From an uncultured Anaerolineaceae bacterium (GTDB lineage: Bacteria; Chloroflexota; Anaerolineae; Promineifilales; Promineifilaceae), in NCBI GenBank assembly GCA_937967805.1, contig CALBTC010000043.1:1-12387 (forward strand): a stretch of DNA of 12,387 bases, in the 5' to 3' direction. A program made the translations under genes and the position numbers. Of this stretch, positions 1 through 12,387 are shown one piece after another. How positions within the stretch are numbered: position 1 is the first letter of the stretch; each line of letters begins with the position of its first letter. The notes beneath the pieces were generated by a model, which saw only the letters and a list, made by a program, of their open reading frames with translations, was not told the origin of the DNA and did not search any database.

Positions 1-128
1 TTTTCTGTGGCGCGATTAGTATTGGGTGTGTGTTTGTTTGCTCTGTTTATCGAGCTTGTGCATTGCTGCGATCGTCCTATTGTTTGTCGCTAGTTGCAGT
101 GCTCAGTAATCGGTAATCAGTGAACGGT
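1..128. other. Window edge and leader of the lipoprotein gene; possible tail of an upstream gene
   Basis: No confident gene lies here. On the plus strand, frame 1 is open from base 1 to a TAG at 91-93 and reads as a short hydrophobic stretch ending in a basic tail. It could be the C-terminus of an upstream membrane protein, but frame 3 is also open for a similar length, so this cannot be decided. The segment is T/G-rich. Bases 104-123 form a short repeat-like string with two GTAATC units 7 bp apart, of a type often seen as intergenic filler in environmental genomes. No convincing promoter was seen. Confidence 0.3.
104..123. repeat. Short AT-rich intergenic repeat (GTAATC units)
   Basis: GTAATC occurs at 106-111 and 113-118 within a CAGTAATC/GGTAATCAGTG string. 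It lies just before the lipoprotein start and contains the GTG at 120, which could be mistaken for that gene's start. The call of a dispersed repeat family rests on memory of similar strings in other environmental genomes. Only one copy of this family is in the window. Confidence 0.35.
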
Positions 129-782
129 ATGCGTTTGTTTTGGCGAGAAATTGTTTTGTTGGTTTGTTTGTTGCTGTTGGTGGCCTGCGCCGATGCAACG
201 GGCGTGCCGGGGGCATCCGGGGCGGACGTCATTTATGCCGATGGCTTTGTGCCCGGCGATACGGGCAATTGGGTGATTGAAGGGGACAACGCCGGGAAAA
301 CCTCATTGATCAACGAGCAGCTTGTGATTGATTTGACCGATAACCACATTATGCAGTTTTCTACCCTGCCCGACATCACCTTCGACAACTTTATTTTGGA
401 GGTGGATGCCCGGCTGCTGGAGGGAGATTTAGGCAGCAGCTACGGCGTGTTGTTCCGTATGCAGGACACGACCCGCTTTTACCGTTTCGAGATCACCGGC
501 GACGGCCTGTACATGGTGGAGCGGCGCGACGGCGAACAGGGTTGGACCCGCTTTGTCGACCGCTGGACGGAATCAACGGCCATCAAGCAAGGGCTGGGCA
601 GCGTGAACCGGCTGCGCGTGGAGGCGTTGGGACAAACGATTTCCCTGTACGTCAACGATGAGCCGCTTTACCAGTTTAGCGACACCGCCTACAGCAGCGG
701 CACCATTGCCCTGGACGCGGGTACGTTTGTGCAGCCCAAGGCGCAGGTGGCGTTTGATAATCTGGTGGTGCGACGGCCGTAA
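129..782 (+). CDS. Lipoprotein with a LamG/DUF1080-like jelly-roll domain
   Basis: This is a predicted exported, lipid-anchored protein of 217 residues. The N-terminus has Arg2/Arg6, a hydrophobic core and a lipobox L17-V18-A19-C20, so cleavage before Cys20 is expected, followed by a short linker. The rest (about residues 35-217) is beta-rich. It contains an FYRFEI-G-GLY core and a C-terminal VAFDNLVV strand, the pattern of concanavalin-like/3-keto-disaccharide hydrolase (DUF1080) domains that often bind or process sugars. No catalytic residues could be assigned. ATG at 129 is preferred over GTG at 120, because 120 lies in repeat-like sequence and the ATG gives a clean signal peptide. The stop codon overlaps the next start (TAATG), so the two genes are probably translationally coupled. 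The function is not known; sugar binding is only a family-level guess. Confidence 0.8.
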   Translation: MRLFWREIVLLVCLLLLVACADATGVPGASGADVIYADGFVPGDTGNWVIEGDNAGKTSLINEQLVIDLTDNHIMQFSTLPDITFDNFILEVDARLLEGDLGSSYGVLFRMQDTTRFYRFEITGDGLYMVERRDGEQGWTRFVDRWTESTAIKQGLGSVNRLRVEALGQTISLYVNDEPLYQFSDTAYSSGTIALDAGTFVQPKAQVAFDNLVVRRP

Positions 783-1633
783 TGGACGTACGCACTGCGG
801 TGGAAACGGCCGTTTCTGCCCAACTCCAGGAGATAACCCCGCTCTCCGGCGGGCAAATCGGGCAGGTATTCCGCGTAAAGCTGGCCGATGGCACGCCGCT
901 GGTGGTGAAGTTTGACGATGGGCCAGAGCCGCAGTTGGACATCGAAGGCAACATGCTGCGCTACCTGGCCCAGCGGACGGAACTGCCCGTGCCGGGTGTC
1001 GTTCATTCCCAGCCGCATTTACTCATCATGGAATGGCTGCCGGGGCAGAGCCGCTTTTCGCCCCAGGCCGAGGCCGACGCGGCCGAACACCTGGCGGCCC
1101 TGCACGGGGTGACCGCAGATACGTTTGGCTTTCCTTTCATGACCCTCATCGGCGCGTTTACGCAGCCCAATCCGGCCACAGAAAGCTGGCTCGACTTTTT
1201 CCGTGAACAGCGCATTTTTCATTTGATGGGCGAAGGGCTGCGGCTGAGGCGGCTGCCGCAATCATTTGTGCCCCGTCTGGAAAAGCTGTGTGGCCATTTG
1301 GACCGATGGCTGGCGGAACCGGAGCGACCGTCCCTCATCCACGGCGACATTTGGACCACCAACGTTTTGGCACAAAACGGCCGCATTACCGGTTTCCTGG
1401 ACCCGGCCATCTATTTTGGCATTGATGAAATGGAGCTGGCCTACATTGCCTTGTTCAACTCGTTTGGCACGCCATTTTTTAGACGGTATGAAGAGATACG
1501 GCCGTTGCCGCCCGGCTTTTACGAGGAACGGCGGCATCTCTACAGCCTGTACCCCTTACTCAGCCACGTCTGCCACTTTGGCGGCAGCTACGTGGGCATG
1601 GTTGATTCAGTCCTGCGCCGCTTCGGCTATTAG
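782..1633 (+). CDS. Fructosamine kinase family protein (FN3K-like)
   Basis: This is a cytosolic kinase of 283 residues with the protein-kinase-like/aminoglycoside phosphotransferase fold, close to the usual fructosamine kinase length of about 285-290. Visible features are a nucleotide-loop region near residues 20-35 (LSGGQIGQVFRV), the ATP-contacting lysine K43 in LVVKF, the catalytic loop H187-G-D189-I-W-T-T-N194, and the metal-binding D207 in FLDPAIYFG followed by the family-typical E-MELAY. The family phosphorylates ketosamines on glycated proteins or small amines, which destabilises the adduct (protein repair), but the true substrate cannot be read from sequence. It overlaps the upstream lipoprotein by one base and is probably co-transcribed with it. 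A general aminoglycoside-type phosphotransferase is the alternative, but the DPAIYFG and MELAY motifs favour FN3K. Confidence 0.9.
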   Translation: MDVRTAVETAVSAQLQEITPLSGGQIGQVFRVKLADGTPLVVKFDDGPEPQLDIEGNMLRYLAQRTELPVPGVVHSQPHLLIMEWLPGQSRFSPQAEADAAEHLAALHGVTADTFGFPFMTLIGAFTQPNPATESWLDFFREQRIFHLMGEGLRLRRLPQSFVPRLEKLCGHLDRWLAEPERPSLIHGDIWTTNVLAQNGRITGFLDPAIYFGIDEMELAYIALFNSFGTPFFRRYEEIRPLPPGFYEERRHLYSLYPLLSHVCHFGGSYVGMVDSVLRRFGY

Positions 1634-1639
1634 AAAAGA

Positions 1640-1720
1640 TTAACCGCGGAGGACGCGGAGAGCACGGAGGGGGTAATGTTGGAGAATAACTCTGCGTTCT
1701 CCGCGCTCTCCGTGGTAAAA
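1640..1720. repeat. Hairpin-forming intergenic repeat, copy A
   Basis: The left arm (about 1640-1670) is built from 9-10-nt units of the kind CGCGGAGGA, GCGGAGAG, CACGGAGG. The right arm (about 1690-1717) is its imperfect reverse complement (GTTCTCCGCG, CTCTCCGTGG). It shares the loop string GGAGAATAA and most of its right arm with copy B at 2803-2868. The left arm supplies a strong Shine-Dalgarno-like GGAGG (1666-1670) just upstream of an ATG at 1676. This type of imperfect palindrome is widespread in environmental bacterial genomes and often creates spurious peptide ends in annotations. Confidence 0.75.
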
Positions 1721-1726
1721 AAGATC

Positions 1727-2605
1727 ATGAATGACTTTCCAGAGCTGCATACGTTGTGGGATTACAACGATCCGGCGGGAACGGCCGCTCGTTTTCAGGC
1801 GCTTTTGCCAAAAGTAGCGGCCTCTAATGACCGTGCCCATCACGTTGAGCTGTTGAGCCAGTTAGCTCGCACACACAGCCTGCGCCGCCAGTTTGATGAA
1901 GCACACCAACTGCTGGATGAAGCAGAAGCGATGCTGACCGAGGCAATGATCGTGCCCAAAATTCGCTGCCTGCTGGAGCGAGGGCGGGCGTTTAATTCGG
2001 CGGGCGAACCGGAGCGGGCGCTGCCGCTGTTTCATGAGGCGTTTGGCTTGGGAACGGCCGTTACCCCCCAGGCCGATTTCCACACCATCGACGCCGCCCA
2101 TATGATCGCCATTGCCGAGCCGGAAGCGGCCGACCAGCTTAGATGGAACGAGAAAGCCCTGGTGTTGGCCGAAGCCACGCCCGATGAGCGGGCAGGCGGC
2201 TGGCGCGGTTCCCTCTACAACAATCTCGGCTGGACCTACCACGACATGGGCAACTACGAGCAGGCGCTGACCATTTTTGAAAAAGCACGGGAATGGCGCG
2301 AGGCGCATCATCAGGACAAGCCGGAAACCATTCGCATCGCCAAATGGTGTGTGGGGCGCACGCTGCGCTCGCTCAACCGGCTGGAAGAGGCGCTGGCGTT
2401 GCAGCAGGCGCTGCTGGCCGAAAATGGGCAAAGTGACGGCTTCATTTTCGAGGAACTGGGTGAATGTTTGTGGGCATTGGATCGGCGAGAAGAAGCACGG
2501 CCGTATTTTGCCCAGGCTTATGCAGAATTGTCCAAGTTAGATTGGTTGGTAACTTCGGAGCCGGAACGCCTAGAGCGGCTGGCGCGGCTTGGAGGTGAAA
2601 AGTAA
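1727..2605 (+). CDS. Tetratricopeptide repeat protein
   Basis: This protein of 292 residues (from ATG 1727) is mostly helical, with several TPR-like helix pairs. The clearest are about residues 18-53 (ELLSQLARTHSLRRQFDEA), 161-195 (LYNNLGWTYHDMGNYEQALTIF), 203-231 (RTLRSLNRLEEALAL) and 238-270 (ELGECLWALDRREEARPYF). There is no signal peptide, so it is probably cytosolic and acts in protein-protein contacts; the partner is unknown. The frame is also open to an ATG at 1676 with a strong SD. The 17 extra residues come from the right half of hairpin repeat A, so they are probably not ancestral even if translated. The last residues (GGEK) and stop fall in AAAAGT-type low-complexity sequence. One ACGGCCGT is at 2054 and another at 2497. 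Confidence 0.82.
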   Translation: MNDFPELHTLWDYNDPAGTAARFQALLPKVAASNDRAHHVELLSQLARTHSLRRQFDEAHQLLDEAEAMLTEAMIVPKIRCLLERGRAFNSAGEPERALPLFHEAFGLGTAVTPQADFHTIDAAHMIAIAEPEAADQLRWNEKALVLAEATPDERAGGWRGSLYNNLGWTYHDMGNYEQALTIFEKAREWREAHHQDKPETIRIAKWCVGRTLRSLNRLEEALALQQALLAENGQSDGFIFEELGECLWALDRREEARPYFAQAYAELSKLDWLVTSEPERLERLARLGGEK

Positions 2606-2620
2606 AAAGTGAAAAGTGGG
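2591..2620. repeat. AAAAGT-type low-complexity spacer
   Basis: GTGAAAAG-T/AAAAAGT-GAAAAGTG units with a period of about 8 nt bridge the end of the TPR gene and the next small gene. They provide the TPR stop codon (TAA 2603-2605). Similar strings are common intergenic filler in environmental genomes. Only one tract is in the window, so membership of a repeat family is an inference. Confidence 0.4.
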
Positions 2621-2622
2621 CA

Positions 2623-2835
2623 GTGGCGGAACGGTTGACAGAGATGTATGCGGTGGGAACGGCCGTACAAATTTGGCCGGGTGAGCAGGCGTGGTTGCGT
2701 GGGGTGGTGATTGCCCATCAGCCACCGGCCGTTTGGGTGCAAACGGAAGACGGCCGTGCCTGGTTTGTCACCAACCGCCGCCGCATTCGCCCAGAAGAAA
2801 CGAACCGCGGAGGACGCGGAGAGAAAGGAGAATAA
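2623..2835 (+). CDS. Small hypothetical protein, probable SH3-like beta fold
   Basis: This is a short reading frame of 70 residues (GTG at 2623). An ATG at 2644 gives 63 residues and may be the true start; neither has a strong SD. The core alternates hydrophobic and polar residues with four tryptophans (VQIWPG, WLRGVVI, VWVQTEDG, WFVTNRRRIRP), the look of a small beta-barrel such as an SH3-like or YSIRK-free surface domain. The stop and the last ten residues (NRGGRGEKGE) come from hairpin repeat B, so the native protein probably ends near IRPEET. It carries two ACGGCCGT sites (2659, 2750), as the flanking genes do, which supports it being long-resident coding DNA. It lies between the TPR and methyltransferase genes on the same strand. 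The function is unknown, and it could be a chance frame. Confidence 0.5.
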   Translation: MAERLTEMYAVGTAVQIWPGEQAWLRGVVIAHQPPAVWVQTEDGRAWFVTNRRRIRPEETNRGGRGEKGE

Positions 2836-2868
2836 ACTCCGTGTTCTCCGCGTCCTCCGCGGTGAAAA
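2803..2868. repeat. Hairpin-forming intergenic repeat, copy B
   Basis: A perfect 19-bp inverted repeat, ACCGCGGAGGACGCGGAGA at 2804-2822, pairs with 2845-2863. It extends inward with a few mismatches to GGAG (2827-2830) pairing with CTCC (2837-2840), leaving a six-base AATAAA loop. It would form a strong cruciform or RNA hairpin. One arm carries SD-like GGAGG and the other carries CCTCC. It shows clear similarity to copy A at 1640-1720. It overlaps the 3' end of the small gene and lies 20 bp before the methyltransferase start. It has no T-run after the stem, so it is not a typical intrinsic terminator. Confidence 0.85.
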
Positions 2869-2883
2869 ATTTTGAGAGGGATG

Positions 2884-3609
2884 ATGCGTGAAGAAGTGGT
2901 GCAGCGTTTGCTGGACCTGAACCGGGAATTTTATGACGCCCAGGCGGATTCTTTTTCCGGCAGCCGGGTGTCGCCGCAGCCGGGATTTGCCCGCCTGCTG
3001 CCCCATCTACCCCGGCCGTGCCCCCGCTTTTTGGACGTGGGCTGCGGCAACGGCCGTTTCGCCCAGTTTCTGCAATCCCACAACCGTATTGGCGAATTTA
3101 TCGGCGTCGATTTCAGCGCAGAGCTGCTGGCCGATGCCGCCCAAAATGCGGAGGGCACATTTTACCGGCGAAACTTGTTGGAGCCGGGCTGCCTGGACGG
3201 CCTGGGCATCTTCCCTGCTGTTTCTTGCCTGGCGGTGCTGCACCATTTGCCGGGCAAGGCAAACCGGGTGCGGTTGTTGCGGGAGATTCGGGAGCATTTG
3301 ACGGGGAACGGCCGTCTGCTCATTTCTAACTGGCAGTTTATGGACAGCGCTCGCCAGCGGCGCAAGGTGCAAGATTGGGCCGAAATTGGCCTGGCGGCGA
3401 CCGATGTGGAGCCAAACGATTATCTGCTGGCTTGGCGGCGCGGCGGTTTTGCCTTGCGCTACGCCTGCCACATTGATGCTGAGGAAACGGCCGAACTGGC
3501 CGAATCTGCCGGGTTTGCCATTGTTGATCAGTTCCGCAGCGATGGCAAAGAAGGCAACCTGAGCCTTTACACCGTGTTGACACCCACCCTGCCAATGCTA
3601 CAATCTTAA
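2884..3609 (+). CDS. Class I SAM-dependent methyltransferase, Trm9-like
   Basis: This is a cytosolic methyltransferase of 241 residues. Motif I is D51-V-G-C-G-N-G57, the acidic ribose-binding residue is D76 in GVDFS, and the motif IV/post region is SCLAVLHHLPG (H120-H121), followed by REIREHLTGNGRLLISNW. The N-terminal NREFYDAQADSF and the C-terminal DYLLAWRRGGFALRY-H-D plus NLSLYTVL resemble the methyltransferase domain of Trm9/ALKBH8, which modifies wobble uridines in tRNA. That substrate is an inference from pattern; a small-molecule or lipid methyltransferase is possible. Start choice: TTG 2872, ATG 2881 and ATG 2884 are in frame. ATG 2884 is best spaced from GAGAGGG (2874-2880). The last codons contain a strong promoter for the next operon. 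Confidence 0.85.
   Translation: MREEVVQRLLDLNREFYDAQADSFSGSRVSPQPGFARLLPHLPRPCPRFLDVGCGNGRFAQFLQSHNRIGEFIGVDFSAELLADAAQNAEGTFYRRNLLEPGCLDGLGIFPAVSCLAVLHHLPGKANRVRLLREIREHLTGNGRLLISNWQFMDSARQRRKVQDWAEIGLAATDVEPNDYLLAWRRGGFALRYACHIDAEETAELAESAGFAIVDQFRSDGKEGNLSLYTVLTPTLPMLQS
3577..3604 (+). promoter_or_regulatory. Near-consensus sigma-70-type promoter for the yqeY operon
   Basis: A perfect -35 box TTGACA (3577-3582), a 16-bp spacer and a -10 box TACAAT (3599-3604), preceded by an extended -10 TG at 3596-3597. It overlaps the 3' end of the methyltransferase gene and points at yqeY. Transcription would start near 3611, giving a leader of about 120 nt. The match is seen directly; activity is inferred. 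Confidence 0.65.
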
Positions 3610-3642
3610 TTGCGCTGTAAGGAGCGGAACCAGGCTGAGCCA

Positions 3643-3676
3643 AAGGTGCCTTATGAAGGTGCCTTATTTGGTAAGG
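3643..3676 (+). repeat. 13-bp tandem repeat in the yqeY leader, with a possible hairpin
   Basis: AAGGTGCCTTAT occurs at 3643-3654 and again at 3656-3667 (period 13). Downstream, CCTTA (3662-3666) can pair with TAAGG (3672-3676) around a five-base loop. The first CCTTA (3649-3653) could compete for the same partner. It lies inside the predicted 5' leader of yqeY. No riboswitch class was recognised. Confidence 0.45.
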
Positions 3677-3729
3677 GTGGTTAGCTTTGTACAGATAACA
3701 GGTTAAGACATTTGGAAAAAGGTCAGCAG

Positions 3730-4179
3730 ATGAGTATTAAAGAAACGTTGCAAAAAAATCGAATTGCGGCCATGCGCGAAGGCGATACAGCAAAACGAAA
3801 TGCCATCGGCCTGCTGCTGGCGGCCATTAAACAAGAAGAAGTGGATAACCAGACAACATTGGATGATAAAGGCGTAATGGACGTTTTACTGCGGCAAGCC
3901 AAGCAGCGGCGTGAAAGCATTGCCGATTATGAAAAAGCGGGCCGTCCTGAAATGGCGGCCAATGAAGAAGCAGAACTAAAAATTATTGAGTCGTATTTGC
4001 CACAGCAAATGAGCCGTGAGGAAGTTGAGGCCGTCGCTGCGGAGATCATTGCCGATTTAGGTGTGACAGATGCAAAGGGCATGGGACAGGTAATGGGGAA
4101 GCTGATGCCCAGATTGAAAGGACAGGCAGACGGCCGTTTGGTCAATGAAGTCGTGCGCGAACTGCTGCAAAATCAGTAA
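3730..4179 (+). CDS. yqeY: GatB/YqeY domain-containing protein
   Basis: This protein of 149 residues is the usual length of stand-alone YqeY proteins, which share the C-terminal domain of the GatB amidotransferase subunit and are suspected of a tRNA-related role; the biochemical function is not settled. Visible family features are the N-terminal SIKETLQKNRIAAMREGDTAKRNAIGLL, the AIKQEEVDNQ helix, the IADYEKAGRPEMAANEEAELKIIESYLPQQMS segment and the C-terminal GKLMPRLKGQADGRLVNEVVRELL. ATG 3730 is chosen over TTG 3712, because the family begins here and AAAGGT (3719-3723) is a reasonable SD. It is the first gene of a four-gene operon, behind a strong promoter and leader, and ends 15 bp before pgpH. 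Confidence 0.93.
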   Translation: MSIKETLQKNRIAAMREGDTAKRNAIGLLLAAIKQEEVDNQTTLDDKGVMDVLLRQAKQRRESIADYEKAGRPEMAANEEAELKIIESYLPQQMSREEVEAVAAEIIADLGVTDAKGMGQVMGKLMPRLKGQADGRLVNEVVRELLQNQ

Positions 4180-4194
4180 CCCTTCCTGACAAAA

Positions 4195-6372
4195 ATGACA
4201 GCTCAAAAAGACGAGCGACCCCGTTGGCAAAAATGGCTCCAAGGCTCCTTGCTTTGGGTCTTCGCCACCGCCGTAACCCTGGGTCTTACCATTATTTTTA
4301 GCTTCAACCTGGTCACCGCCACTGAGGTCCAGGTGTCTCAGGGTGCTCCGGCCAGCGAAGATATTCTGGCGCCTCGTTCTATTACCTATGAGAGCGACGT
4401 GCTGCTGGCCACCGCCCGCGAAAATGCGCGTGCTGCCGTGCAGGAAGTATACACGCGGCCAGGCAATGACATTGGCCGCAATCAACTAAACTTGGTGAGC
4501 GCCGTTCTTTCTTTTACTGATGTAGTAAGAGCCGATGCCCTGGCCACCAAAGAAACGAAACTCTCTTATCTGCAGGCGATTGAAGCGTTAACCATCCAGG
4601 AACAAGTGGGGCTAGATTTGTTGGAGCTTTCTGCTGCGGATTATGAGGTGGTGAAGGATGAAATATCGCGCATTGTTGGTGATTTGATGCGCCAGGATAT
4701 TCGCGAGAGCCAAATTCGTGATTACCAGATTATTGCTCGACGCGAGGCCAGCCTGGAATTAACGCCGAAGCAAGAAAATGTGGTGACCAATCTTGCACCC
4801 CAGTTTATTGTGCCGACGGTGTTTCCTGACCCGGAAGCCACGGCCGAACTGCGTGAAGAGGCGGTGCAGAATGTGGGCACGTTCCCGGTGAGCATTGCCA
4901 ACAATGAGCGCATCGTGCGCCAGGGTGACATTGTTACGGCACTGGACATTGAGAAGTTGACGCAGTTGGGCTTGCTGCAAAGCCGGCTAGATTGGCGGGA
5001 TGTGGCGGCCGTTTTTGTGGCGTCGCTTCTGTCTGTGGTGCTGATAACAATGTATTGGCATCAATTTTACTGGCCGCGCGTGCGGGACAACGGCCGTTCC
5101 CTGACGGTGCTGGCCAGCCTGATTTTGGTCTTTGCCGCCATGGCCAAGCTGATGGTCACCGGTGGCAGTTTTCTCACGTACATTTTCCCCATGGCGGCGT
5201 TTTCCATGCTGTTGAGCGTTATTTACGATGTGCGTTTTTCCATCACGGTCACGATCATGATGGCGGCGCTGATTGGTTTTTTGACGCCAAATTCATTAGA
5301 GCTGGCAGCGTATACGGCCGTTGGCGGCCTTTTGGCTATCCTCACTTTGCAAGATGCTCAGCGGATTAACGCCTTCTTTCGGGCGGGTCTGGCGGCGGCC
5401 ATCGGCGCCTGTGCCGTTATCCTGGTGTTTCGCCTGAACCAGGAGATGATCGACGTGATCAATATGCTGGAATTGATGGGGTACGCGTTTGTCAACGGCA
5501 TGTTGTCTGCTGCGCTGACGCTTGTTGGCTTCTTTATTTTGGGCAGCCTGTTTGGCATTACCACCACGCTGCAACTGCAAGAGTTAGCCCGGCTGGATCA
5601 CCCCCTGCTGCAAGAGCTGCTGCGCCGCGCACCGGGTACATACCATCACAGCATCATGGTGGCCAATTTAGCCGAGCAGGCGGCGGACCAAATCAAGGCG
5701 AACAGTGCCCTGATTCGAGTTGGCGCGTTTTACCACGACATCGGCAAGATGAACCGCCCCCCGTTTTACAGCGAAAACCAGGAAGGGATAAATCCGCACG
5801 ATGCGCTGGACCCCCAAACCAGTGCCCGCATCATTTTAAGCCATGTGCCTGACGGTTTAGAACTGGCCAAACGGTATAAGCTGCCTTACCGGATTCACCA
5901 ATTCATTGCCGAGCATCACGGAACGCGCCTGGTGAAAGGCTTTTTGTTTAAAGCGCAGGAGCAGGCGGCAGAAGATGAAGAGATCGACGCGGAGAAGTTC
6001 CGTTATCCTGGCCCCCGGCCGCAAACGCGGGAAACGGCCGTTGTCATGCTGGCCGATGTCATAGAATCCACCTCCCGCGCCTTGCAGCCAAACAGTGAAA
6101 AAGCGATAGAGAAGCTGGTGAACTCATTGATAGATGAGGATTTGACTGAAGGTCAACTGGATGAATCCGGCTTAACGTTGGGGGATATCCGGCTGATTCG
6201 GGAGTCGTTTATTAAAACGTTGAAAGGGCGCTTCCACGTTCGGGTCAAATACCCAGGCAATGAGGAACTGTTGTCGGCCGAGGAACAGGCGGTGGTGGAA
6301 ACGGCCGTCAGCCAACCACGATTGCCGGCTGATGTTGTACAATCCCAGCTAAGGGAGGACATGTCGTCGTGA
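4195..6372 (+). CDS. pgpH: 7TM receptor HD-domain phosphohydrolase (PgpH/YqfF family)
   Basis: This is a membrane protein of 725 residues and a probable c-di-AMP phosphodiesterase. It has an N-terminal membrane segment (about 14-37), then an extracytoplasmic 7TMR-HDED domain (about 40-265) with the conserved DILAPRSI-Y-SD entry and RIVRQGDIVT exit. A bundle of membrane helices follows (about 267-460), then a cytoplasmic HD domain. HD metal ligands are visible: H484/H485 in GTYHHS, H514-D515 in YHDIGK, H574-H575 in EHHGT and D621 in MLADVIE. The family hydrolyses c-di-AMP to pApA in Firmicutes; that substrate is inferred here, since no cyclase is in the window. GTGA overlap with ybeY indicates translational coupling. 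The SD of this gene is weak. Confidence 0.93.
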   Translation: MTAQKDERPRWQKWLQGSLLWVFATAVTLGLTIIFSFNLVTATEVQVSQGAPASEDILAPRSITYESDVLLATARENARAAVQEVYTRPGNDIGRNQLNLVSAVLSFTDVVRADALATKETKLSYLQAIEALTIQEQVGLDLLELSAADYEVVKDEISRIVGDLMRQDIRESQIRDYQIIARREASLELTPKQENVVTNLAPQFIVPTVFPDPEATAELREEAVQNVGTFPVSIANNERIVRQGDIVTALDIEKLTQLGLLQSRLDWRDVAAVFVASLLSVVLITMYWHQFYWPRVRDNGRSLTVLASLILVFAAMAKLMVTGGSFLTYIFPMAAFSMLLSVIYDVRFSITVTIMMAALIGFLTPNSLELAAYTAVGGLLAILTLQDAQRINAFFRAGLAAAIGACAVILVFRLNQEMIDVINMLELMGYAFVNGMLSAALTLVGFFILGSLFGITTTLQLQELARLDHPLLQELLRRAPGTYHHSIMVANLAEQAADQIKANSALIRVGAFYHDIGKMNRPPFYSENQEGINPHDALDPQTSARIILSHVPDGLELAKRYKLPYRIHQFIAEHHGTRLVKGFLFKAQEQAAEDEEIDAEKFRYPGPRPQTRETAVVMLADVIESTSRALQPNSEKAIEKLVNSLIDEDLTEGQLDESGLTLGDIRLIRESFIKTLKGRFHVRVKYPGNEELLSAEEQAVVETAVSQPRLPADVVQSQLREDMSS

Positions 6373-6851
6373 CATCATACCGCATTCACGTACAGCAGAA
6401 AGAAAAAGTGGTTCATTCGATTGCGGCGGCATTGCGCACGGCCGTTACCGTCACGTTGCGGCACGAACAGATAAAGCCGCCCGCCGAAGTTACCCTGCTG
6501 CTCACCGATGACGATCAGCTCTGGGCCCTCAACAAAGAGTATCTCGGCATTGACAAGCCGACCGATGTTCTCAGCTTTCAAGCGGGCGAAGCGATGCCCG
6601 GCATGAAGGAAGACGAGACGTACCTGGGCGACATTGTCATTTCTCTGTCGATGGCCAAACGCCAGGCCAAACGGGGAGGACACAGTCTGAAATCTGAGCT
6701 GCAACTGCTTACGGTTCACGGCACGCTCCATTTGCTGGGCTACGATCATGAAGAAGCAGAAGAAAAAGACCGCATGTGGTGGGCACAGGCATCCATTTTG
6801 GCCCAGCTGGGTGCAGAGATTACCGGCCCGCCGGAGGATGAGGAGGTTTAG
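6369..6851 (+). CDS. ybeY: rRNA maturation endoribonuclease YbeY
   Basis: This cytosolic metalloprotein of 160 residues is of typical length. The signature H117-G-T-L-H121-L-L-G-Y-D-H127 supplies the three zinc-binding histidines. Upstream, LNKEYLGIDKPTDVLSFQ and YLGDIVIS are the other conserved YbeY blocks. The family acts in 16S rRNA 3'-end maturation and late ribosome quality control. The start is GTG 6369, sharing four bases with the pgpH stop. AAGGGAGGA at 6351-6359 is a strong SD at good spacing and lies inside pgpH. The C-terminal EEAEEKDRMWWAQASIL is also family-like. Confidence 0.95.
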   Translation: MTSYRIHVQQKEKVVHSIAAALRTAVTVTLRHEQIKPPAEVTLLLTDDDQLWALNKEYLGIDKPTDVLSFQAGEAMPGMKEDETYLGDIVISLSMAKRQAKRGGHSLKSELQLLTVHGTLHLLGYDHEEAEEKDRMWWAQASILAQLGAEITGPPEDEEV

Positions 6852-6859
6852 CCGTCTTG
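6841..6859 (+). promoter_or_regulatory. Strong ribosome binding site setting a TTG start for dgkA
   Basis: AGGAGGTT at 6841-6848 lies 8 bases before TTG 6857. No ATG or GTG is close enough, so the rare TTG start is well supported. The SD overlaps the last codons of ybeY. Confidence 0.75.
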
Positions 6860-7246
6860 TCCCCCGAGAATCACTCAGAAATTTATAATCGCGCCAAGAG
6901 CTTTCGGTATGCGTTTGATGGCTGGTGGTTTGTGCTGCGTACCCAGCACAATGCCTGGATTCATGCTGTCATTACGGGTGCGGTGGTGGTTGTTGGGCTG
7001 TGGCTGCGCCTGCCGCTGCGCGACTGGGCCGTGCTTATTCTCACATTCATGGCGGTGTGGATGGCTGAATTTTTGAACACCGCCCTGGAGGCCGTGGTGG
7101 ATATGACTATGCCGGAGGTGCATCCTCTGGCGAAGGTGGCCAAAGACGTGGCGGCTGCGGCCGTTCTGGTGGGGGCATTAGGCGCCATTTTGATTGGCTT
7201 GCTGCTGTTGGGGCCACCCCTGTGGCAGCGCCTGTTTGGCGCCTGA
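6857..7246 (+). CDS. dgkA: Diacylglycerol / undecaprenol kinase
   Basis: This small integral membrane kinase has 129 residues and three predicted helices (about 34-53, 57-75, 94-120). The family signature is clear: A70-E71-F-L-N74-T-A-L-E78-A-V-V-D82, then HPLAKVAKDVAAAAVLV. Upstream, NRAKSFRYAFDGWWFVLRTQHN-WIH is the typical amphipathic N-terminus. In Gram-positive-type bacteria this family mostly phosphorylates undecaprenol for cell-wall carrier recycling, and in proteobacteria diacylglycerol; which applies here is not decided by sequence. It is the last gene of the operon and ends 3 bp from the convergent proline dehydrogenase stop. There is no room for a stem-loop terminator between them. 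Confidence 0.94.
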   Translation: MSPENHSEIYNRAKSFRYAFDGWWFVLRTQHNAWIHAVITGAVVVVGLWLRLPLRDWAVLILTFMAVWMAEFLNTALEAVVDMTMPEVHPLAKVAKDVAAAAVLVGALGAILIGLLLLGPPLWQRLFGA

Positions 7247-7249
7247 AAA

Positions 7250-8275
7250 TTATTTAAGCAAATTAGCCAGGAAGAACCATAAATTGGCGGGCCGTTCTGC
7301 CAGCCGGCGCATAAAGTAAGGATACCAGGCGGTGCCATATGGTATGTAAATGCGCATCCGGTACCCCTGCTGGTGTATTTCTTGCTGCAAATCCCGGCGA
7401 ACACCATACAGCATCTGGAACTCAAACGCATCGGCATCAATTTGGTTTTGGCGGGCAAACTGGATAATTGCCCGAATCAAGGTTCCATCGTGGGTGGCAA
7501 AGCAAGGGAACATGCCCCGCTGCCTGGCTTCTTCGCTCAGCATTTGTTTGGCCAGGTGCAAAAAGTTGGCGTCGGTATCCGCTTTGTCAGGAAAGGCAAT
7601 ATCGGCCGATTCCTTGTACGCGCCTTTGCACAGCCGCACCCATGCCCCTTCCTGAATAAGCGCCTGAACGTCAGCCTCGGTGCGGTATAGGTATGCCTGA
7701 AGAACGATGCCAACCCGCTTACCAAATTGGTCCTCGTCGCGCAGGCGGCGATAAAGGTCAAGCGTTGTGTCGGTCACGCTGCTGTCTTCCATATCAATCT
7801 GGATGCGTGTATCATATTTTTCAGCGGCGGTAAGCACTTGCTGTAAATTGCTGTGAATGGTTTCTGGGCTAATGTGTAGCCCTAATTGGGTTGGCTTGAT
7901 AGAAACGTGGGCATTGACGCCATATTGGTGGATCTGTTGCATCAGGTGAATGATAGCTTCCCGCGCGACGGCCGCATCTTCCGCTGTATCGACGCTTTCC
8001 CCCAGAAAGTTGAGGGTGGCAGATAAGCCACTTTTGTTGACTGCCTGGCTGGCCTGGATGGCGTTTTGGCTGGTTTCACCGGCAATGAAGCGGCTGGCCA
8101 CCTGCCAGGCCGGAGGAAACTCTGTGGCGATCTGGCGCGCCCAGGCTGCTTTTGATAAGTATAACAAAAAGGAACGAAGCCATTGTTCGCTATATTTGTA
8201 AAGAATCAGTATGCTTATGATGAGTGTTGTGAAAAGTATGAAGACACGGGCAAAAGGGGAACGGTCTTGACGCAT
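7250..8275 (-). CDS. Proline dehydrogenase (monofunctional, FAD-dependent) with N-terminal membrane segment
   Basis: This 341-residue enzyme oxidises proline to pyrroline-5-carboxylate with FAD, the first step of proline catabolism. Visible blocks in the TIM barrel are VSIKPTQLG, IQIDMEDS, RVGIVLQAYL, RLCKGAYKE, FATHD, FEFQMLYGVR and YIPYGTAWYPYFMRRLAERPAN, with the proline-carboxylate-binding arginines in R323-R324 and R328. The monofunctional family is usually near 300-310 residues. Here about 30 extra N-terminal residues include a hydrophobic run (about 10-27) that looks like a membrane anchor. The start at 8275 has AAGGAT at 9-base spacing, and no ATG lies between it and the conserved start of the fold. 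No pyrroline-5-carboxylate dehydrogenase gene is adjacent. The gene has no ACGGCCGT site. Confidence 0.93.
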   Translation of the reverse strand: MRQDRSPFARVFILFTTLIISILILYKYSEQWLRSFLLYLSKAAWARQIATEFPPAWQVASRFIAGETSQNAIQASQAVNKSGLSATLNFLGESVDTAEDAAVAREAIIHLMQQIHQYGVNAHVSIKPTQLGLHISPETIHSNLQQVLTAAEKYDTRIQIDMEDSSVTDTTLDLYRRLRDEDQFGKRVGIVLQAYLYRTEADVQALIQEGAWVRLCKGAYKESADIAFPDKADTDANFLHLAKQMLSEEARQRGMFPCFATHDGTLIRAIIQFARQNQIDADAFEFQMLYGVRRDLQQEIHQQGYRMRIYIPYGTAWYPYFMRRLAERPANLWFFLANLLK

Positions 8276-8350
8276 TTCTATTTATCCTTACTTGGTAACA
8301 TTTAACATCTGTCTCGCCGCAGGCATCGCTTCGGCGAAATGGATCGGGCG

Positions 8351-8451
8351 GAACAGTAACTGTATGATACTTCAAATTATTTGGTCTAATCAAACCAGAA
8401 TAGTAACTATACAGACCCTAAGGGTCTTGCCGGAGGAACCTGAATAGTTAC
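8351..8451. repeat. Three GAA(C/T)AGT(A/T)AC motifs and nested inverted repeats
   Basis: The motif occurs at 8351-8360 (GAACAGTAAC), 8398-8407 (GAATAGTAAC) and 8442-8451 (GAATAGTTAC), spaced 47 and 44 bp. Between the last two, GTAACTAT (8403-8410) is the exact reverse complement of ATAGTTAC (8444-8451). Nested inside is the near-perfect palindrome AGACCCTAAGGGTCT (8413-8427). It sits in the divergent gap between proline dehydrogenase and the histidine kinase. It could be a regulator-binding array, an RNA hairpin in the kinase leader, or a small dispersed element. Confidence 0.5.
8364..8393 (-). promoter_or_regulatory. Possible promoter for the proline dehydrogenase gene
   Basis: Read on the minus strand: TTGATT (8393-8388), 18-bp spacer, TATCAT (8369-8364). 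Both boxes are close to sigma-70 consensus. The leader to the start at 8275 would be about 80 nt. One of the three GAA(C/T)AGT(A/T)AC motifs (8351) lies just past the predicted -10. Confidence 0.35.
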
Positions 8452-8456
8452 CCGGG

Positions 8457-11400
8457 ATGTTGCCTGCTGAAACTGATATGATTTCCGATTCTACCGATTC
8501 TTTTCCTCAACAGATACCAGACTTCCCGTTTGCCCAGGCGTTTGCCGCCAGGGCCGGAGTTATCTTTTGGATTGCCGATCCCGGTTCATACCGGCTTGTG
8601 TATGTGAGCCCCCATGTAGAAAAAGTGTTGGGTCTGGGGGTAGATGTATGGTTACGGCCGTTATTCTGGCAAACTCACTTGTTTGAGGGAGATAGGGAGC
8701 GGGTGCTGGCAGCATTGAATGAGGCGGTGACGAGTGGAACGGTGCAGCACATTGAGTACCGTATGGTCGCCAAAAATGGCAGTCTGGTTTGGCTGCGGGA
8801 CCGAATCTGCACGGTGGTTGAGGCGGACGTTACCTATCTTTGCGGCATGATAACGGATGTAACGGCGTTTAAAACGGCCGTCGATCATCATACCGGCGTC
8901 CAAGGCTACACCAGCATCTTTCTGGAGATTGTGACGTTGCTTTCCGGTAATGAAGAAATTAACCAGAAGCTTGATCAGTTGGCAGAAAAATTGTGTGATG
9001 TGTTTGGGTTAACGGCCGTTTCCATTCTAAATTGGGACGTCGTTAGCTATTTCACTCGCTTTGAAAGGCAAGATGGAGTGTCTTTCTCGCCAGAATATTT
9101 TCAAGAAAATCGCTTGAGCGAAATTATTGAAGGTTTGAGTTGGTGGCAATCACCGGCAAATCCGGTACTGTCTCAGCATGATGATCCCACATTGTCAGAC
9201 TGGGAAAAGAATCATTTGCTGCTGCATCGTGCCAAAGCCATCCTTTTTGTGCCCATACAAGCCAATGATGAAATCATTGGCTGCCTTGAACTTGCGAGTA
9301 ACCGGGCCGAGCAGTATTTTTCCCCAAGTGATATTGAGCTCACTGAATTTGTGGCCCAACAGACTGCGTTTGCTGTTGCCCGCGATCAGTTATTTAAAGC
9401 AGAAGCCCGTCGCCGGCGCGAGGCAGAAATATTGTTAGATGTGGCCGAGTTTGTTTCCAGCAGCCTGGATCGGGATGAGATTCTGGCGCGCGTGATGGAA
9501 ATCCTGCGGGTTTACCTGGATGATGTTCACAACTGCTCTATCTCGCTTATTACGGAAGATGGTTTGCAATTGGAGACCATCTTATCCTGGTATGCAGATG
9601 AGGCGTATGCGCTGCTGCCAAAAGGCAAACGAACGGAAATTGGAGACTCCTTTACAAGCCATCTGGCTTTAGAGAGTGGTGAGCCTATCTTCATTTCTGA
9701 CCTCAAAACAATTCCGTTTACCAATAATTTCACCACCTCAATGATAGAAATTGGGCTGCGGGCTATCTTGTGTGTGCCATTGAAAGTTAAGAACAAACCG
9801 GTGGGGACACTCCATGTTCATCATTGGCACAAGCCCCGGCACTTTTCCAGCGAAGAGATTGCTCTGTTGCAAGGGGTGGCCAATCAGGCGGCCATTGCCA
9901 TTGAAAATGCACGATTATTTGCCAATGAGCGGCGGCAGCTTAATTTATCCAGAACCTTGCAAAAAGTAGGGGCGCTGTTGACGACAAGTTTACAGCTTGA
10001 AGAAGTGTATGAGCATATTTTTGATCTGCTTAGCCGGGTGGTTGCTTACAAATCCGCATCTCTTTATCGGCTGGACAAGGCGAATGACCAATTTACGCTG
10101 GTAAAGGCGCGAGGCTTTCCGGCCTCGTTTTTGGATTCCCGTGATTTTGTTTTGCCATCTGATCACGTCTTTGCCCAAATTGCTATTCCGCCCGGATGGA
10201 CAGTTGCCGCAGATTTGAGAACTGTTTCTTCCTGGATAAACCTGGCAGGGGACGATAGGGCGCGTGCCTGGATTGGGGCCTTTTTGGTGGTCAAGGGTGA
10301 GATCAACGGTATTTTGAGTGTTGATGGTATGCGCGTCGATCAATATTCTGAGGAGGACGGCCGTATGGTAGCCACATTTGCCAACCAGGCGGCCGTGGCC
10401 ATTGAGAATGCCCGTCTGTATGATGAAACGATGCGGCAGGCGAAGGAGCTGGCCATCTTGCACCAGGTGTCTCAGGAAACGGCCGTTTCACTCAACATAG
10501 ATAACTTCCTGGAAAAAATAACCAAAACGGTAGGGGCTGAGCTGTTCCCCCATATTTTTGGCTTTGTGATGTACGATACTGAAACCCAGGAGCTGAGACC
10601 CCATGCTTCCTACGCCCCAGTAGCCGAAAAGTTTGAGGAAAAAGGCATTCCGCTAGATCACAGCATCGTTGGCCAGGTTGTGAAGAGCGGACGGCCGTAT
10701 TATGCTCCCAACGTGCTTGAAGATTCCCATTACTTTCCCACAGTGAGCAATGTCTTGTCTGAACTGGTTGTGCCGCTTAAGCTCAACCAGGAAGTGGTTG
10801 GCGTGATAGATGTTGCCAGCCCGGAAGCCGAAGCGTTTCCTCAGCGCGATATTGACTTTTTAACCACCCTGGCCGGTAATATCGCTGCCGTCATGGAACG
10901 GGCCAACCTGTATGAAACCTTACGAATACAGGCGGCTGGACTGGCAAAAGAAGTGGCCCAACGCACTCGTGAGCTAAAGTTAGAACGGGATAGGCTGTTC
11001 GCCATCTTAGAAAGTGCCGGTGAAGGCATTCTTCTAACTGATACCGAATCAAATATCATGTACGCCAATCCGGCGATGGAACGCCAGAGCGGTTACAGTC
11101 GGGAAGAGCTGCGCTCCAAAAACACCCGCATATTGGGCAGTCCGCAAATGCCAAAAACGGTCTATACTGAAATGTGGCAAAGCTTGCAGGCGCAAAAGAG
11201 CTGGATGGGTGAGCTTATCAATGAGCACAAGGATGGCCATACCTATGATGTCGCCGTCACGATTACGCCCATTGTGGCTGATAAAGGGGAAGTAACCGGC
11301 TTTGTCAGCGTTCATTCTGATATTTCGCGCCTGAAGGAACTGGAACGGCTTAAAACGGAATTTATTGCCAACGTTTCGCACCAACTGCGCACGCCGTTGA

Positions 11401-12062
11401 CCAATATCAAGACGTATGTTTCTCTACTCAAAAAAGGCAAGCCAGAAAATTTCCCCCGCTACTTTTCCGTGCTGCATGATGAGATTGATCGCCTGGCCCG
11501 GCTTATTCAAGATTTGCTGGATATTTCCCGGCTAGACGCGGAAAATGTGCCAAATCCTGAGGCGGCGGTAGATTTATGTGACTTTTGGGAAATGTTTTGG
11601 CCCCACTTTGAGGAGCGGGCCGAACGTGAAAACAGAACGTTGCAGCTTGCCTTCCCTGACGAAGTGGCAATGCAAGCGCCTATACTTTTTATAGAATCTT
11701 ACCAACTGGAGAAGATTTTTTCCCGGCTAATGGATAACAGTTTGTCTTACACATCTGAAGGTGGACTGATTCAGGTGTTGGCTTTGGGACAAGACTCGCT
11801 CACCGGCATGTTCAAAATCCAAGTCTGTGATGATGGTCCCGGTATTCCTGAAGCGGAACGGCCGTTCATCTTCGACCGCTTCTTCCGGGGTGCCCAGGCC
11901 ATCGAGTCCGGCCTGTCCGGCAATGGGTTGGGGCTGGCTATTGTCAGGGAACTGTTGACGCTGTATGGTGGTGAAATCTCCCTGGAAAGCGAGCCGGATC
12001 AAGGTGTTTGCTTTACTGTCCACCTGCCGCTGGTGCAACCTGATACAGAACAGTCAACATGA
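8457..12062 (+). CDS. Multi-sensor histidine kinase (PAS, four GAF, PAS, HisKA, HATPase)
   Basis: This 1201-residue cytosolic sensor kinase has no membrane segment. Domains: PAS about 26-140, GAF about 153-310, 325-490, 500-660 and 662-825, coiled coil about 825-848, PAS about 843-960, HisKA about 962-1030, and HATPase_c about 1070-1195. The phospho-accepting H975 is in FIANVSHQLRTPLT. The ATPase has N-box N1094, D-box D1125-D-G-P-G1129, an F-box (FIFDRFF) and G-box G1155-N-G-L-G1159, so it looks catalytically intact. GAF ligands are unknown; I saw no bilin-lyase-type cysteine motif. There is no receiver domain and no response regulator gene within the visible flanks, so the partner is elsewhere. 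Start: ATG 8457 has no well-placed SD (GGAGG at 8432-8436 is 20 nt away), and ATG 8478 is also possible. GC looks lower than in the first genes of the window. Confidence 0.93.
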   Translation: MLPAETDMISDSTDSFPQQIPDFPFAQAFAARAGVIFWIADPGSYRLVYVSPHVEKVLGLGVDVWLRPLFWQTHLFEGDRERVLAALNEAVTSGTVQHIEYRMVAKNGSLVWLRDRICTVVEADVTYLCGMITDVTAFKTAVDHHTGVQGYTSIFLEIVTLLSGNEEINQKLDQLAEKLCDVFGLTAVSILNWDVVSYFTRFERQDGVSFSPEYFQENRLSEIIEGLSWWQSPANPVLSQHDDPTLSDWEKNHLLLHRAKAILFVPIQANDEIIGCLELASNRAEQYFSPSDIELTEFVAQQTAFAVARDQLFKAEARRRREAEILLDVAEFVSSSLDRDEILARVMEILRVYLDDVHNCSISLITEDGLQLETILSWYADEAYALLPKGKRTEIGDSFTSHLALESGEPIFISDLKTIPFTNNFTTSMIEIGLRAILCVPLKVKNKPVGTLHVHHWHKPRHFSSEEIALLQGVANQAAIAIENARLFANERRQLNLSRTLQKVGALLTTSLQLEEVYEHIFDLLSRVVAYKSASLYRLDKANDQFTLVKARGFPASFLDSRDFVLPSDHVFAQIAIPPGWTVAADLRTVSSWINLAGDDRARAWIGAFLVVKGEINGILSVDGMRVDQYSEEDGRMVATFANQAAVAIENARLYDETMRQAKELAILHQVSQETAVSLNIDNFLEKITKTVGAELFPHIFGFVMYDTETQELRPHASYAPVAEKFEEKGIPLDHSIVGQVVKSGRPYYAPNVLEDSHYFPTVSNVLSELVVPLKLNQEVVGVIDVASPEAEAFPQRDIDFLTTLAGNIAAVMERANLYETLRIQAAGLAKEVAQRTRELKLERDRLFAILESAGEGILLTDTESNIMYANPAMERQSGYSREELRSKNTRILGSPQMPKTVYTEMWQSLQAQKSWMGELINEHKDGHTYDVAVTITPIVADKGEVTGFVSVHSDISRLKELERLKTEFIANVSHQLRTPLTNIKTYVSLLKKGKPENFPRYFSVLHDEIDRLARLIQDLLDISRLDAENVPNPEAAVDLCDFWEMFWPHFEERAERENRTLQLAFPDEVAMQAPILFIESYQLEKIFSRLMDNSLSYTSEGGLIQVLALGQDSLTGMFKIQVCDDGPGIPEAERPFIFDRFFRGAQAIESGLSGNGLGLAIVRELLTLYGGEISLESEPDQGVCFTVHLPLVQPDTEQST

Positions 12063-12080
12063 ATGCCAATCTCATGCCAA

Positions 12081-12124
12081 GCCGCCAAGTGCGCCAAACG
12101 GTCTTTGCGACTTTGCGTGAGGCC
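12081..12124. repeat. Imperfect inverted repeat of the CGCCAAG/CTTTGCG type
   Basis: The left part (12081-12099) has two roughly 9-nt units, CCGCCAAGT and GCGCCAAAC. The right part (12101-12124) has CTTTGCGA and CTTTGCGTGAGGCC, roughly its reverse complement. It has the same design as repeats A and B (9-nt units, imperfect palindrome) but a different sequence. It fills the 78-bp gap between the kinase and the glycosylase. There is no T-run placed as in an intrinsic terminator. Confidence 0.5.
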
Positions 12125-12140
12125 GTTTTCTGAAAAGACA

Positions 12141-12387
12141 ATGCCTAAACTACCGCAAGCCTTTTATGCTCATTCGGCCCGGACAGTGGCCCAGGCGCTG
12201 CTGGGCAAAAAGCTGGTGCGCCGGCTAGACGGCCGTCTCCTCAGCGGCATTATCGTGGAAACGGAAGCGTATTGTGACGGTGAGGAGCGCGATCTGGCCT
12301 GCCACGGCGAACGGGTGAACGATGCTCAACCGACGCCGCGAACGGCCGTCATGTTTGGTCCGGCCGGTTTTGCTTATGTCTACTTCA
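12141..12387 (+). CDS. DNA-3-methyladenine glycosylase (AAG/MPG family), N-terminal part, cut by window end
   Basis: The open frame runs from ATG 12141 past the window end (82 full codons seen of a usual 190-210). It encodes a base-excision repair glycosylase that removes alkylated purines. Family blocks are in order: [21 protein letters not shown], then GIIVETEAY with the catalytic glutamate E42 and intercalating-region Y44 (matching human Glu125 and Tyr127), H55 in DLACH (matching the base-stacking His136), and [16 protein letters not shown]. The segment between H55 and RTAVMFGP ([11 protein letters not shown]) departs from the more common ASH-G-TPRN pattern, but the key residues are kept. 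The SD is weak (GAAAAGA). Two ACGGCCGT sites lie here (12229, 12342); the second encodes TAV inside the conserved RTAVMF block. Confidence 0.92.

Follow-up and report, generated by a model that had tools for sequence, protein, structure and literature searches.

Why does one eight-base palindrome recur about once every half kilobase through a run of ordinary genes? The question is raised by contig CALBTC010000043.1 of an uncultured Anaerolineaceae bacterium, of which positions 1 to 12,387 form the window analysed here, and by the octamer ACGGCCGT, of which the window holds 24 exact copies between positions 773 and 12349. We conclude that an order of Chloroflexota, outside the cyanobacteria, has in ACGGCCGT its own highly iterated palindrome (HIP), and that this palindrome occurs in dialects. 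It is present in coding and non-coding DNA, on chromosomes and on some mobile contigs, nearly everywhere that the proteins permit it, and it is kept over long divergence.

An earlier inspection without database searches (the sequence-only reading) had listed the same 24 copies, all of which were recovered (Table 1); 200 dinucleotide shuffles of the window gave a mean of 0.18 and a maximum of 3. The excess over base composition that it had put at 80-90-fold is real and was recomputed as 96-fold, and the runner-up palindromic octamers reach at most two copies each. All 24 copies lie inside reading frames: 20 in the ten main open reading frames (ORFs), two in a 70-residue ORF (2623-2835) and two in an open frame from 12063. 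The further claims that all three phases are used and that nearly every plus-strand gene is hit also held, with 9, 5 and 6 copies in phases 0, 1 and 2 of the main ORFs and at least one copy in eight of the nine main plus-strand ORFs. The copy-free ORFs are 6857-7246 and the minus-strand gene 7250-8275. The Pfam domains of the ten main ORFs are ordinary: 3-keto-disaccharide hydrolase, fructosamine kinase, TPR, methyltransferase, YqeY, 7TM-HD, YbeY, diacylglycerol kinase, proline dehydrogenase and GAF/PAS histidine kinase.

Proteins named Anaerolineaceae, Ardenticatenaceae, Promineifilaceae and Candidatus Leptofilum share 82-93% identity with the HD protein of the window, and from the names of such related proteins we infer that the carrier order is the Promineifilales. 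The nearest genomes compared, by identity of the HD protein, were G268 (94%), G270 (92%), G271 (86%, partial protein) and G269 (84%). Whole-genome counts were taken from the relatives, with the reversed string TGCCGGCA as a control, and gave 11,907 copies of ACGGCCGT in G268, 12,866 in G269, 11,512 in G270 and 6,888 in G271. This was the genome-wide count proposed in the sequence-only reading, and it places the relatives tens of times over the control, which has a median of 168 in the 56 genomes of the order (that of G001) and falls in the range 50-400 for 42 of them. At least 1,700 copies were found in 30 of the 56 genomes and more than 5,600 in 26, the highest total being 15,176. Among 249 genomes drawn evenly from the class, more than 1,000 copies were found in nine, all nine from this order. 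The abundance is real, genome-wide and, as far as the class was sampled, confined to one order. Furthermore, G254, sampled over 420 kb, has 1,950 copies per million bases and lies within the range of about 500-2500 per million that characterises HIPs.

The excess goes well beyond codon usage. Synonymous codons were shuffled with proteins and pooled codon usage held fixed, in 290 ORFs (345 kb) from genomes using ACGGCCGT, hereafter A-type; 620 copies were seen against 67.0 expected. An artefact of codon or dipeptide usage, against which a check had been proposed beforehand, is rejected, since a 9.3-fold excess survives. Under a third-order Markov model with the motif masked in training, 559 kb contained 822 copies against 14.0 expected. 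In the same analysis the deviants with an outer T (TCGGCCGT) or an outer G (GCGGCCGT) were enriched 4.7-fold and 2.9-fold and those with an outer C 1.2-fold; as in HIPs, deviations lie mostly at the first or last position. One-base deviants at the inner positions numbered 142 against 189 expected (0.75-fold), with no accumulation of inner decay products.

The sites are also strongly conserved. G268, G270 and G269 are syntenic with the window over its whole length at DNA identities of 82, 80 and 72%, and as expected of HIPs they retain the sites, 22, 21 and 20 of the 24, respectively; arbitrary octamers are identical to the window in 25, 20 and 12% of cases. The motif stands in all four sequences at 16 of 35 site columns. 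Third codon positions within sites (the four sites in the 70-residue ORF and the frame from 12063 being omitted) are identical at 50, 49 and 46 of 51, that is 90-98%, against 63, 60 and 52% outside sites, so that the check on synonymous sites put forward in the sequence-only reading gave a very strong signal. The conservation footprint is about eight bases wide and drops at the edges of the octamer, most sharply in G269. At greater depth, the alignment column of copy 11 (hdig column 1108) carries the motif in 18 of 48 sequences including the window, and single rpoB columns carry it in 25, 20, 17 and 15 of 39 genomes, the column shared by 25 including three hexamer-type genomes and G261.

How completely the motif fills the positions open to it was assessed in the three phases. 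In the A-type samples 336 of 353, 194 of 220 and 90 of 127 permitted positions are filled, and in 420 kb of G254 the figures are 406 of 416 in phase 0 (where the motif reads T-A-V), 246 of 276 and 90 of 130. These occupancy figures are partly circular, because the motif has enriched the very tripeptides that permit it: among 335 ORFs of G254, T-A-V was counted 412 times where 61 were expected, which makes it the most over-represented of the tripeptides seen at least 30 times, and HGR, DGR, NGR and YGR are likewise elevated. A non-circular test used nine columns of rpoB, fusA and the HD gene in which permitting residues occur in at least two genomes that are not A-type (motif-free, weak-hexamer, T and G types). 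The motif was present there in 96 of 106 A-type sequences and in 2 of 59 others. ACGGCCGT overrides protein sequence, to the extent of about 350 surplus Thr-Ala-Val over 420 kb of G254; a force strong enough to alter proteins therefore has to be considered when the evolution of genes and proteins in the group is interpreted. Within the rpoB-fusA region (loci L303-L342) the density lies under the genome average in several genomes, for example 6 copies in 7.9 kb of G254. Many contigs of this locus stop just past fusA, probably, at a guess, at a duplicated tuf.

That copies are limited to coding DNA, as the sequence-only reading had it, is true of the window and fails in the relative G254, where the density per kb is 1.9-2.1 for strict non-coding DNA (5.7-19.0 kb depending on the cut-off) and 1.95 for coding-like DNA. 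Spacing is close to random, with a coefficient of variation of 0.99 against 1.02 for random placement in the pooled A-type sequences, and random or slightly clustered in G254 (coefficient of variation 1.11, variance/mean 1.76 per 10 kb). No significant period of 5-100 kb was found in 420 kb of G254 (power 10.3; random 95% limit 11.7). Gaps below 25 bp showed a deficit in the pool (0.8% vs 4.4%), and this was dropped as a real feature since G254 did not repeat it (23 vs 26.3).

The outer base pair around CGGCCG switches between lineages, giving A..T, T..A and G..C forms. Genomes were typed from samples of 3-36 kb each. G256 and G099 use a T-type dialect, TCGGCCGA (82 copies in 68.6 kb of the two together), G184 uses a G-type dialect, GCGGCCGC (75 copies in 49.7 kb), and in G154, G284, G285, G286 and G207 the word is plain CGGCCG with the outer pair unfixed. 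The calls for G256 and G184 rest on the samples. For G099 the genome-wide total is 7,668 TCGGCCGA against 125 for the control, and it is the sole genome above 2,100 among 396 of the class, a count that leaves G256 outside. The word of G264 is TGCCGGCA itself, with 3,665 copies in 4.0 Mb and CGGCCG nearly gone (3 vs 27 expected); G265, with 886 TGCCGGCA, perhaps shows a weak form of the same usage. In 28.8 kb of ORFs of G184, GCCGGC is missing (0 vs 17 expected).

In a tree of three genes and 55 tips, read without its support values, the T-type genomes G256 and G099 fall near G154 and G264, G184 falls beside the hexamer clade, and a weak-hexamer clade is nested inside the A-type genomes. Only one of 16 dialect sites of G256, G099 and G184 in the three genes shares its column with ACGGCCGT of A-type genomes. 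In-place switching is therefore rejected, and the dialect site sets seem to have been rebuilt. One G256 site, at rpoB column 1839, is not specific to the dialect, since 15 further genomes of several types have TCGGCCGA there. The base adjoining the octamer differs by clade as well, being A in the window's clade, C in G254 and G251, A/T in the T-type genomes and C in G184. The extended form AACGGCCGTT, which the sequence-only reading took as preferred, does account for eight of the 24 window copies, as a preference of this clade and not of the motif at large.

The motif also occurs on contigs of a viral collection. IMG/VR was scanned twice for stretches with three copies close together; 31 were listed, from 29 distinct loci, and after the triples were masked 19 of the 29 (those with more than 1 kb left) kept at least 0.5 ACGGCCGT per kb. 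The same kind of search, over one gap range for each word, gave no dense locus for a control palindrome (0 of 18), for TGCCGGCA (0 of 18) or for TCGGCCGA (0 of 6); dialect phages were thus not found in these scans for TCGGCCGA and TGCCGGCA. The 19 dense loci sit on 15 contigs, some of them near-identical, and therefore represent about a dozen elements. One contig (L359/L366) is a phage, with a terminase and a Mu-type portal; it has 95 copies in 26.8 kb, or 3.5 per kb (about 3.1 after masking). The permitted positions of this phage are filled at 32 of 32, 32 of 35 and 17 of 21, much as in G254, as would suit a process that belongs to the cell and not to the chromosome. Further dense contigs resemble plasmids, with ParA or partition proteins. 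The density of phage- and plasmid-like contigs goes up to 3.4-3.5 per kb against 1.95 in G254. Two contigs of the collection, L349 and L360, are 85% identical over 4.9 kb and agree at 8 of 8 sites, whereas 39.6% of other octamers agree. The scan picks dense contigs, and these densities describe that selection, not the share of such hosts' phages that carry the motif.

Which enzyme could be responsible was addressed by family scans of the 56 genomes, which are metagenome-assembled and incomplete. None of the methyltransferase and nuclease families scanned (PF00145, PF01555, PF02086, NotI, Vsr) accounts for all carriers. PF00145 methyltransferases occur in 26 genomes and are absent from 13 of 27 A-type genomes, for which reason a shared 5-methylcytosine (m5C) enzyme of this family was rejected as the factor; four of these 13 (G170, G254, G270, G279) have no PF01555 match better than 1e-15, and G254 and G279 none better than 4e-4. 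Some PF01555 match is present in 52 genomes, with weak matches in G170, G268 and G270 among those listed. In G001 and G184 the methyltransferase-like genes that adjoin the NotI genes reach no better than about 1e-6 against PF01555, near the level of those weak matches, so a divergent enzyme could be missed; a divergent methyltransferase, or a dedicated one from another family, is possible. PF02086 (D12) proteins occur in 45 genomes. Six that were run against NCBIfam are Dam family, and the best PDB matches of two are the DpnII methylase 2dpm and the DNA adenine methylase 2g1p; the tested enzymes would by inference act on GATC, and the family was rejected as the common factor.

EagI recognises CGGCCG and NotI recognises GCGGCCGC, which is the word of G184 itself. 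NotI-family nucleases were found in four of the 56 genomes (G001 L343, G184 L345, G266 L346, G246 L344), too few for a common factor, and a methyltransferase-like gene adjoins the nuclease gene in all three scanned (G001, G184, G266). NotI/EagI restriction-modification thus resembles the present system in that its recognition sites match the core and the G184 dialect. It differs in its sporadic genes and in that restriction sites are normally avoided; ACGGCCGT is strongly enriched in 30 of 56 genomes and on the dense contigs of the viral collection. Vsr-type short patch repair, with the nuclease and its cognate m5C enzyme in every carrier, is likewise rejected, Vsr being present in 8 of 56 genomes and PF00145 in 26. 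The mismatch-binding MutS_I was found in 45 of 56, motif-rich and motif-free genomes alike, and is therefore not informative. G254 also has a type I N6-adenine methyltransferase.

As the cause we tentatively favour, at less than even confidence, a cell-wide directional DNA process, for example mismatch correction biased to the motif by a site-specific factor, because it needs the fewest additions to explain an apparent action on all replicons that is blind to coding and spacing. Directional repair was among the causes named in the sequence-only reading and fits the data, its mechanism being our proposal. A site-specific repair or conversion factor would act on all cellular DNA, and a mismatch between the motif and a near-match would be resolved to the motif, whichever strand was parental. 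Such a ratchet would protect existing sites and fix new ones, even through amino-acid changes, and an altered specificity of the factor would produce the dialects. In its favour count the excess left after codon control, the conservation footprint, the near-saturation of permitted positions, the overridden proteins, the occupancy in the phage, the equal non-coding density of G254, the irregular spacing, the lack of accumulated inner decay products, the motif deserts over a restriction-modification cluster of G254 and the presence of MutS in 45 of 56 genomes. The process seems able to do without a shared cytosine methyltransferase, and with slightly more doubt we suggest that the DNA-writing may be methylation-independent and cell-wide, one factor filling nearly all permitted positions, rewriting proteins and marking chromosome, plasmids and phages, and a changed factor meaning a changed word. 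Several points weigh against the directional process. No protein with such an activity was identified, and the nearest known enzyme, Vsr, is confined to 8 of 56 genomes. A strict ratchet would convert TCGGCCGT and GCGGCCGT, which are enriched (4.7-fold and 2.9-fold), and the depletion of inner near-misses is small, as they stand at 0.85 of expectation already in motif-free genomes. Pooled A-type non-coding DNA has 9 copies in 16.0 kb, or 0.56 per kb against 1.78 elsewhere, by arithmetic a similar fold once the lower GC content is considered. Six of 27 A-type genomes (G251, G257, G258, G003, G270, G273) gave no MutS_I match, perhaps through incompleteness. The dense viral loci gave no nucleotide match to the host stretches compared, so that their hosts are assigned from the motif alone. 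Finally, weak selection on a bound site leads to the same equilibrium, and sequence at equilibrium cannot separate the two.

Selection of that kind, unlikely taken by itself and nearly as likely as the directional process, would act through a dimeric protein that treats motif-bearing DNA as self or protects it, so that all replicons gain. Conservation at synonymous sites, phage- and plasmid-like contigs as dense as host DNA or denser, and dialects with a clade-specific flanking base, as expected of shifting protein specificity, all speak for it, whereas no binding protein was found, near-complete occupancy and unregulated spacing exceed any density requirement, occupancy is alike in host and phage, and the viral contigs were chosen for density with their hosts inferred. 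An improbable explanation is repair directed by a methyltransferase, Elhai's proposal for cyanobacterial HIPs, in which a cytosine methyltransferase on CGGCCG would build up sites. It has its parallel in HIP1 and its alternates, which track methyltransferases (PMC4390886), and Dam-family enzymes occur here as in cyanobacteria; the PF01555 matches of about 1e-6 beside NotI genes also leave room for a divergent enzyme that escapes detection. Against it stand the 13 of 27 A-type genomes that lack PF00145, four of them also without a strong PF01555 match, and the Dam identity of the six tested D12 enzymes. Methylation as a cause, as the sequence-only reading had considered it, is not supported for a shared cytosine methyltransferase of the families scanned and is still possible for a divergent one. 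More improbable again is a DNA-uptake drive, in which the motif would spread by preferential transformation like the DNA uptake sequence (DUS) of Neisseriaceae and the uptake signal sequence (USS) of Pasteurellaceae: about 1-2 copies per kb, sites gained through point changes and dialects that share one core do resemble DUS (dialects, PMC3630211; drive model, PMC1939737), but DUS and USS are not palindromes (PMC1939737) and ACGGCCGT is one of 8 bp, and phage contigs are dense in the motif. A nucleoid or chromosome-segregation signal, also named beforehand and suggested for HIP1 from its chromosomal distribution (Xu 2018, cited in PMC6604393), fits less well because phage- and plasmid-like contigs are dense in the motif; the spacing in 420 kb, random or slightly clustered and without a significant 5-100 kb period, also speaks against it, and we regard it as very improbable. 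That the motif is GC-rich and mostly in coding DNA could suggest a by-product of codon, dipeptide or base composition, which we regard as virtually discounted by the 9.3-fold excess after synonymous shuffling, the non-coding excess, the conservation and the use of other words in genomes of like composition.

HIP1 (GCGATCGC) has, to our knowledge, no agreed cause. It reportedly shows a 10-90 kb periodicity; no significant one was seen in 420 kb of the single genome G254. Like ACGGCCGT, it is a GC-rich palindromic octamer found about 1-2 times per kb, tens of times over expectation, its deviations lie mostly at the outer bases and a GATC methyltransferase is usually present; the parallel drawn in the sequence-only reading is supported by abundance, palindromy, outer-base deviations and conservation. 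HIP1, first described in 1995 (reference in PMC6604393), also has maintained sites, according to the conclusion on selection cited in PMC6604393. The two differ in core (GGCC here, GATC in HIP1) and phylum, in the lack of a shared cytosine methyltransferase among the families scanned in carriers of ACGGCCGT, and in the dense phage- and plasmid-like contigs. Cyanobacterial HIPs have been tied to methyltransferases (Elhai 2015, PMC4390886), a methyltransferase for the core being the usual correlate, with exceptions. The alternate HIPs of that study (GGGATCCC, TCGATCGA, GGCGCC and others) resemble the dialects in that the main palindrome is sporadically replaced and lost. There, at least one putative fitting methyltransferase belongs to each highly over-represented word; the switches of ACGGCCGT differ in that they stay inside one order and exchange the pair that encloses CGGCCG, with a single genome using TGCCGGCA in addition. 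Octamers that reach the frequency of HIP1 occur in very few bacterial genomes, according to an unpublished remark in PMC3497702. A search of the text of PMC4390886 for CGGCCG and Chloroflex found nothing, and the open-access literature searched, mostly titles and abstract openings, gave no report of ACGGCCGT or of such motifs in Chloroflexota, in agreement with the earlier statement that no described counterpart was known.

Among other systems, DUS and USS share with ACGGCCGT a density of about one per kb, a partly genic location and lineage dialects (for the dialects, PMC3630211), and differ in being non-palindromic and tied to competence receptors, where ACGGCCGT has dense phage contigs. Very short patch repair by Dcm/Vsr is like the proposed process in that enzyme-directed correction to a site raises its count, and unlike it in that Vsr was found in 8 of the 56 genomes only. 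A second phylum with a word unrelated to HIP1 offers an independent system for an old cyanobacterial puzzle. The dialect switches, the motif-free lineages, the motif-rich phage contigs and the carriers without a detected fitting methyltransferase are independent contrasts that can separate ideas of methylation, repair, uptake and chromosome structure.

Table 1. Copies of ACGGCCGT in the window with their setting and state in three syntenic relatives, and motif deserts in G254
Feature	Position	Setting	State in relatives
Copy 1	773..780	phase 2, end of ORF 120-782	kept in G268, G270, G269
Copy 2	806..813	phase 0, fructosamine-kinase-like ORF 782-1633	kept in G268, G270, G269
Copy 3	1498..1505	phase 2	kept in G268, G270; ACGGCCGC in G269
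Copy 4	2054..2061	phase 0, TPR ORF 1676-2605	kept in G268, G270, G269
Copy 5	2497..2504	phase 2	kept in G268, G270, G269
Copy 6	2659..2666	70-residue ORF 2623-2835, as T-A-V	kept in G268, G270, G269
Copy 7	2750..2757	70-residue ORF 2623-2835, as D-G-R	kept in G268, G270, G269
Copy 8	3050..3057	phase 1, methyltransferase-domain ORF 2872-3609	kept in G268, G270, G269
Copy 9	3308..3315	phase 1	kept in G268, G269; ACGGCAGT in G270
Copy 10	4130..4137	phase 1, YqeY ORF 3712-4179	kept in G268, G270, G269
Copy 11	5090..5097	phase 1, 7TM-HD phosphohydrolase ORF 4195-6372	kept in G268, G270, G269
Copy 12	5314..5321	phase 0	kept in G270, G269; ACGGCCGC in G268
Copy 13	6034..6041	phase 0	kept in G268, G270; G269 differs
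Copy 14	6301..6308	phase 0	kept in G268, G270, G269
Copy 15	6438..6445	phase 0, YbeY ORF 6369-6851	kept in G268, G270, G269
Copy 16	8654..8661	phase 2, histidine-kinase ORF 8457-12062	kept in G268, G269; G270 differs
Copy 17	8874..8881	phase 0	kept in G268, G270, G269
Copy 18	9012..9019	phase 0	kept in G268, G270, G269
Copy 19	10357..10364	phase 1	of the three, kept only in G270
Copy 20	10479..10486	phase 0	kept in G268, G269; ACGGTCGT in G270
Copy 21	10691..10698	phase 2	kept in G268, G270; G269 differs
Copy 22	11858..11865	phase 2	kept in G268, G270, G269
Copy 23	12229..12236	open frame 12063-12386, as D-G-R	kept in G268, G270, G269
Copy 24	12342..12349	open frame 12063-12386, as T-A-V	kept in G268, G270, G269
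Motif deserts	G254:C1 ~164-173 kb (L391)	over type I restriction-modification cluster	

Two of the longest motif gaps in G254 overlie a cluster of type I restriction-modification genes (HsdR, HsdS and HsdM domains). Such genes are of a kind often newly acquired, and deserts over them are expected if new genes are still without sites; motif-poor patches may in this way mark or date recent gene acquisition. Ribosomal RNA was rejected as a cause, there being no Rfam match in 40 kb. A 16.8 kb contig of G268 (L113, G268:C1) has zero copies in spite of the genome total and looks foreign, and may be foreign or newly acquired DNA or contamination; it was excluded from the synonymous-shuffle, pooled spacing and non-coding, Markov and flank analyses and included in the word-composition and dialect samples. 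The first contigs of G040, G170, G226, G271, G278 and G287 were all-N stretches and unusable. Elsewhere in the class, ACGGCCGT and TCGGCCGA are each limited to 0-1 copies in several genomes of 3.3-5.5 Mb (e.g. G024, G056, G128, G158, G244, G250), as though CGGCCG words were avoided there. In the window, TGGCCA has 16 copies, 4.6-fold over composition, and is raised in some relatives and not in others.

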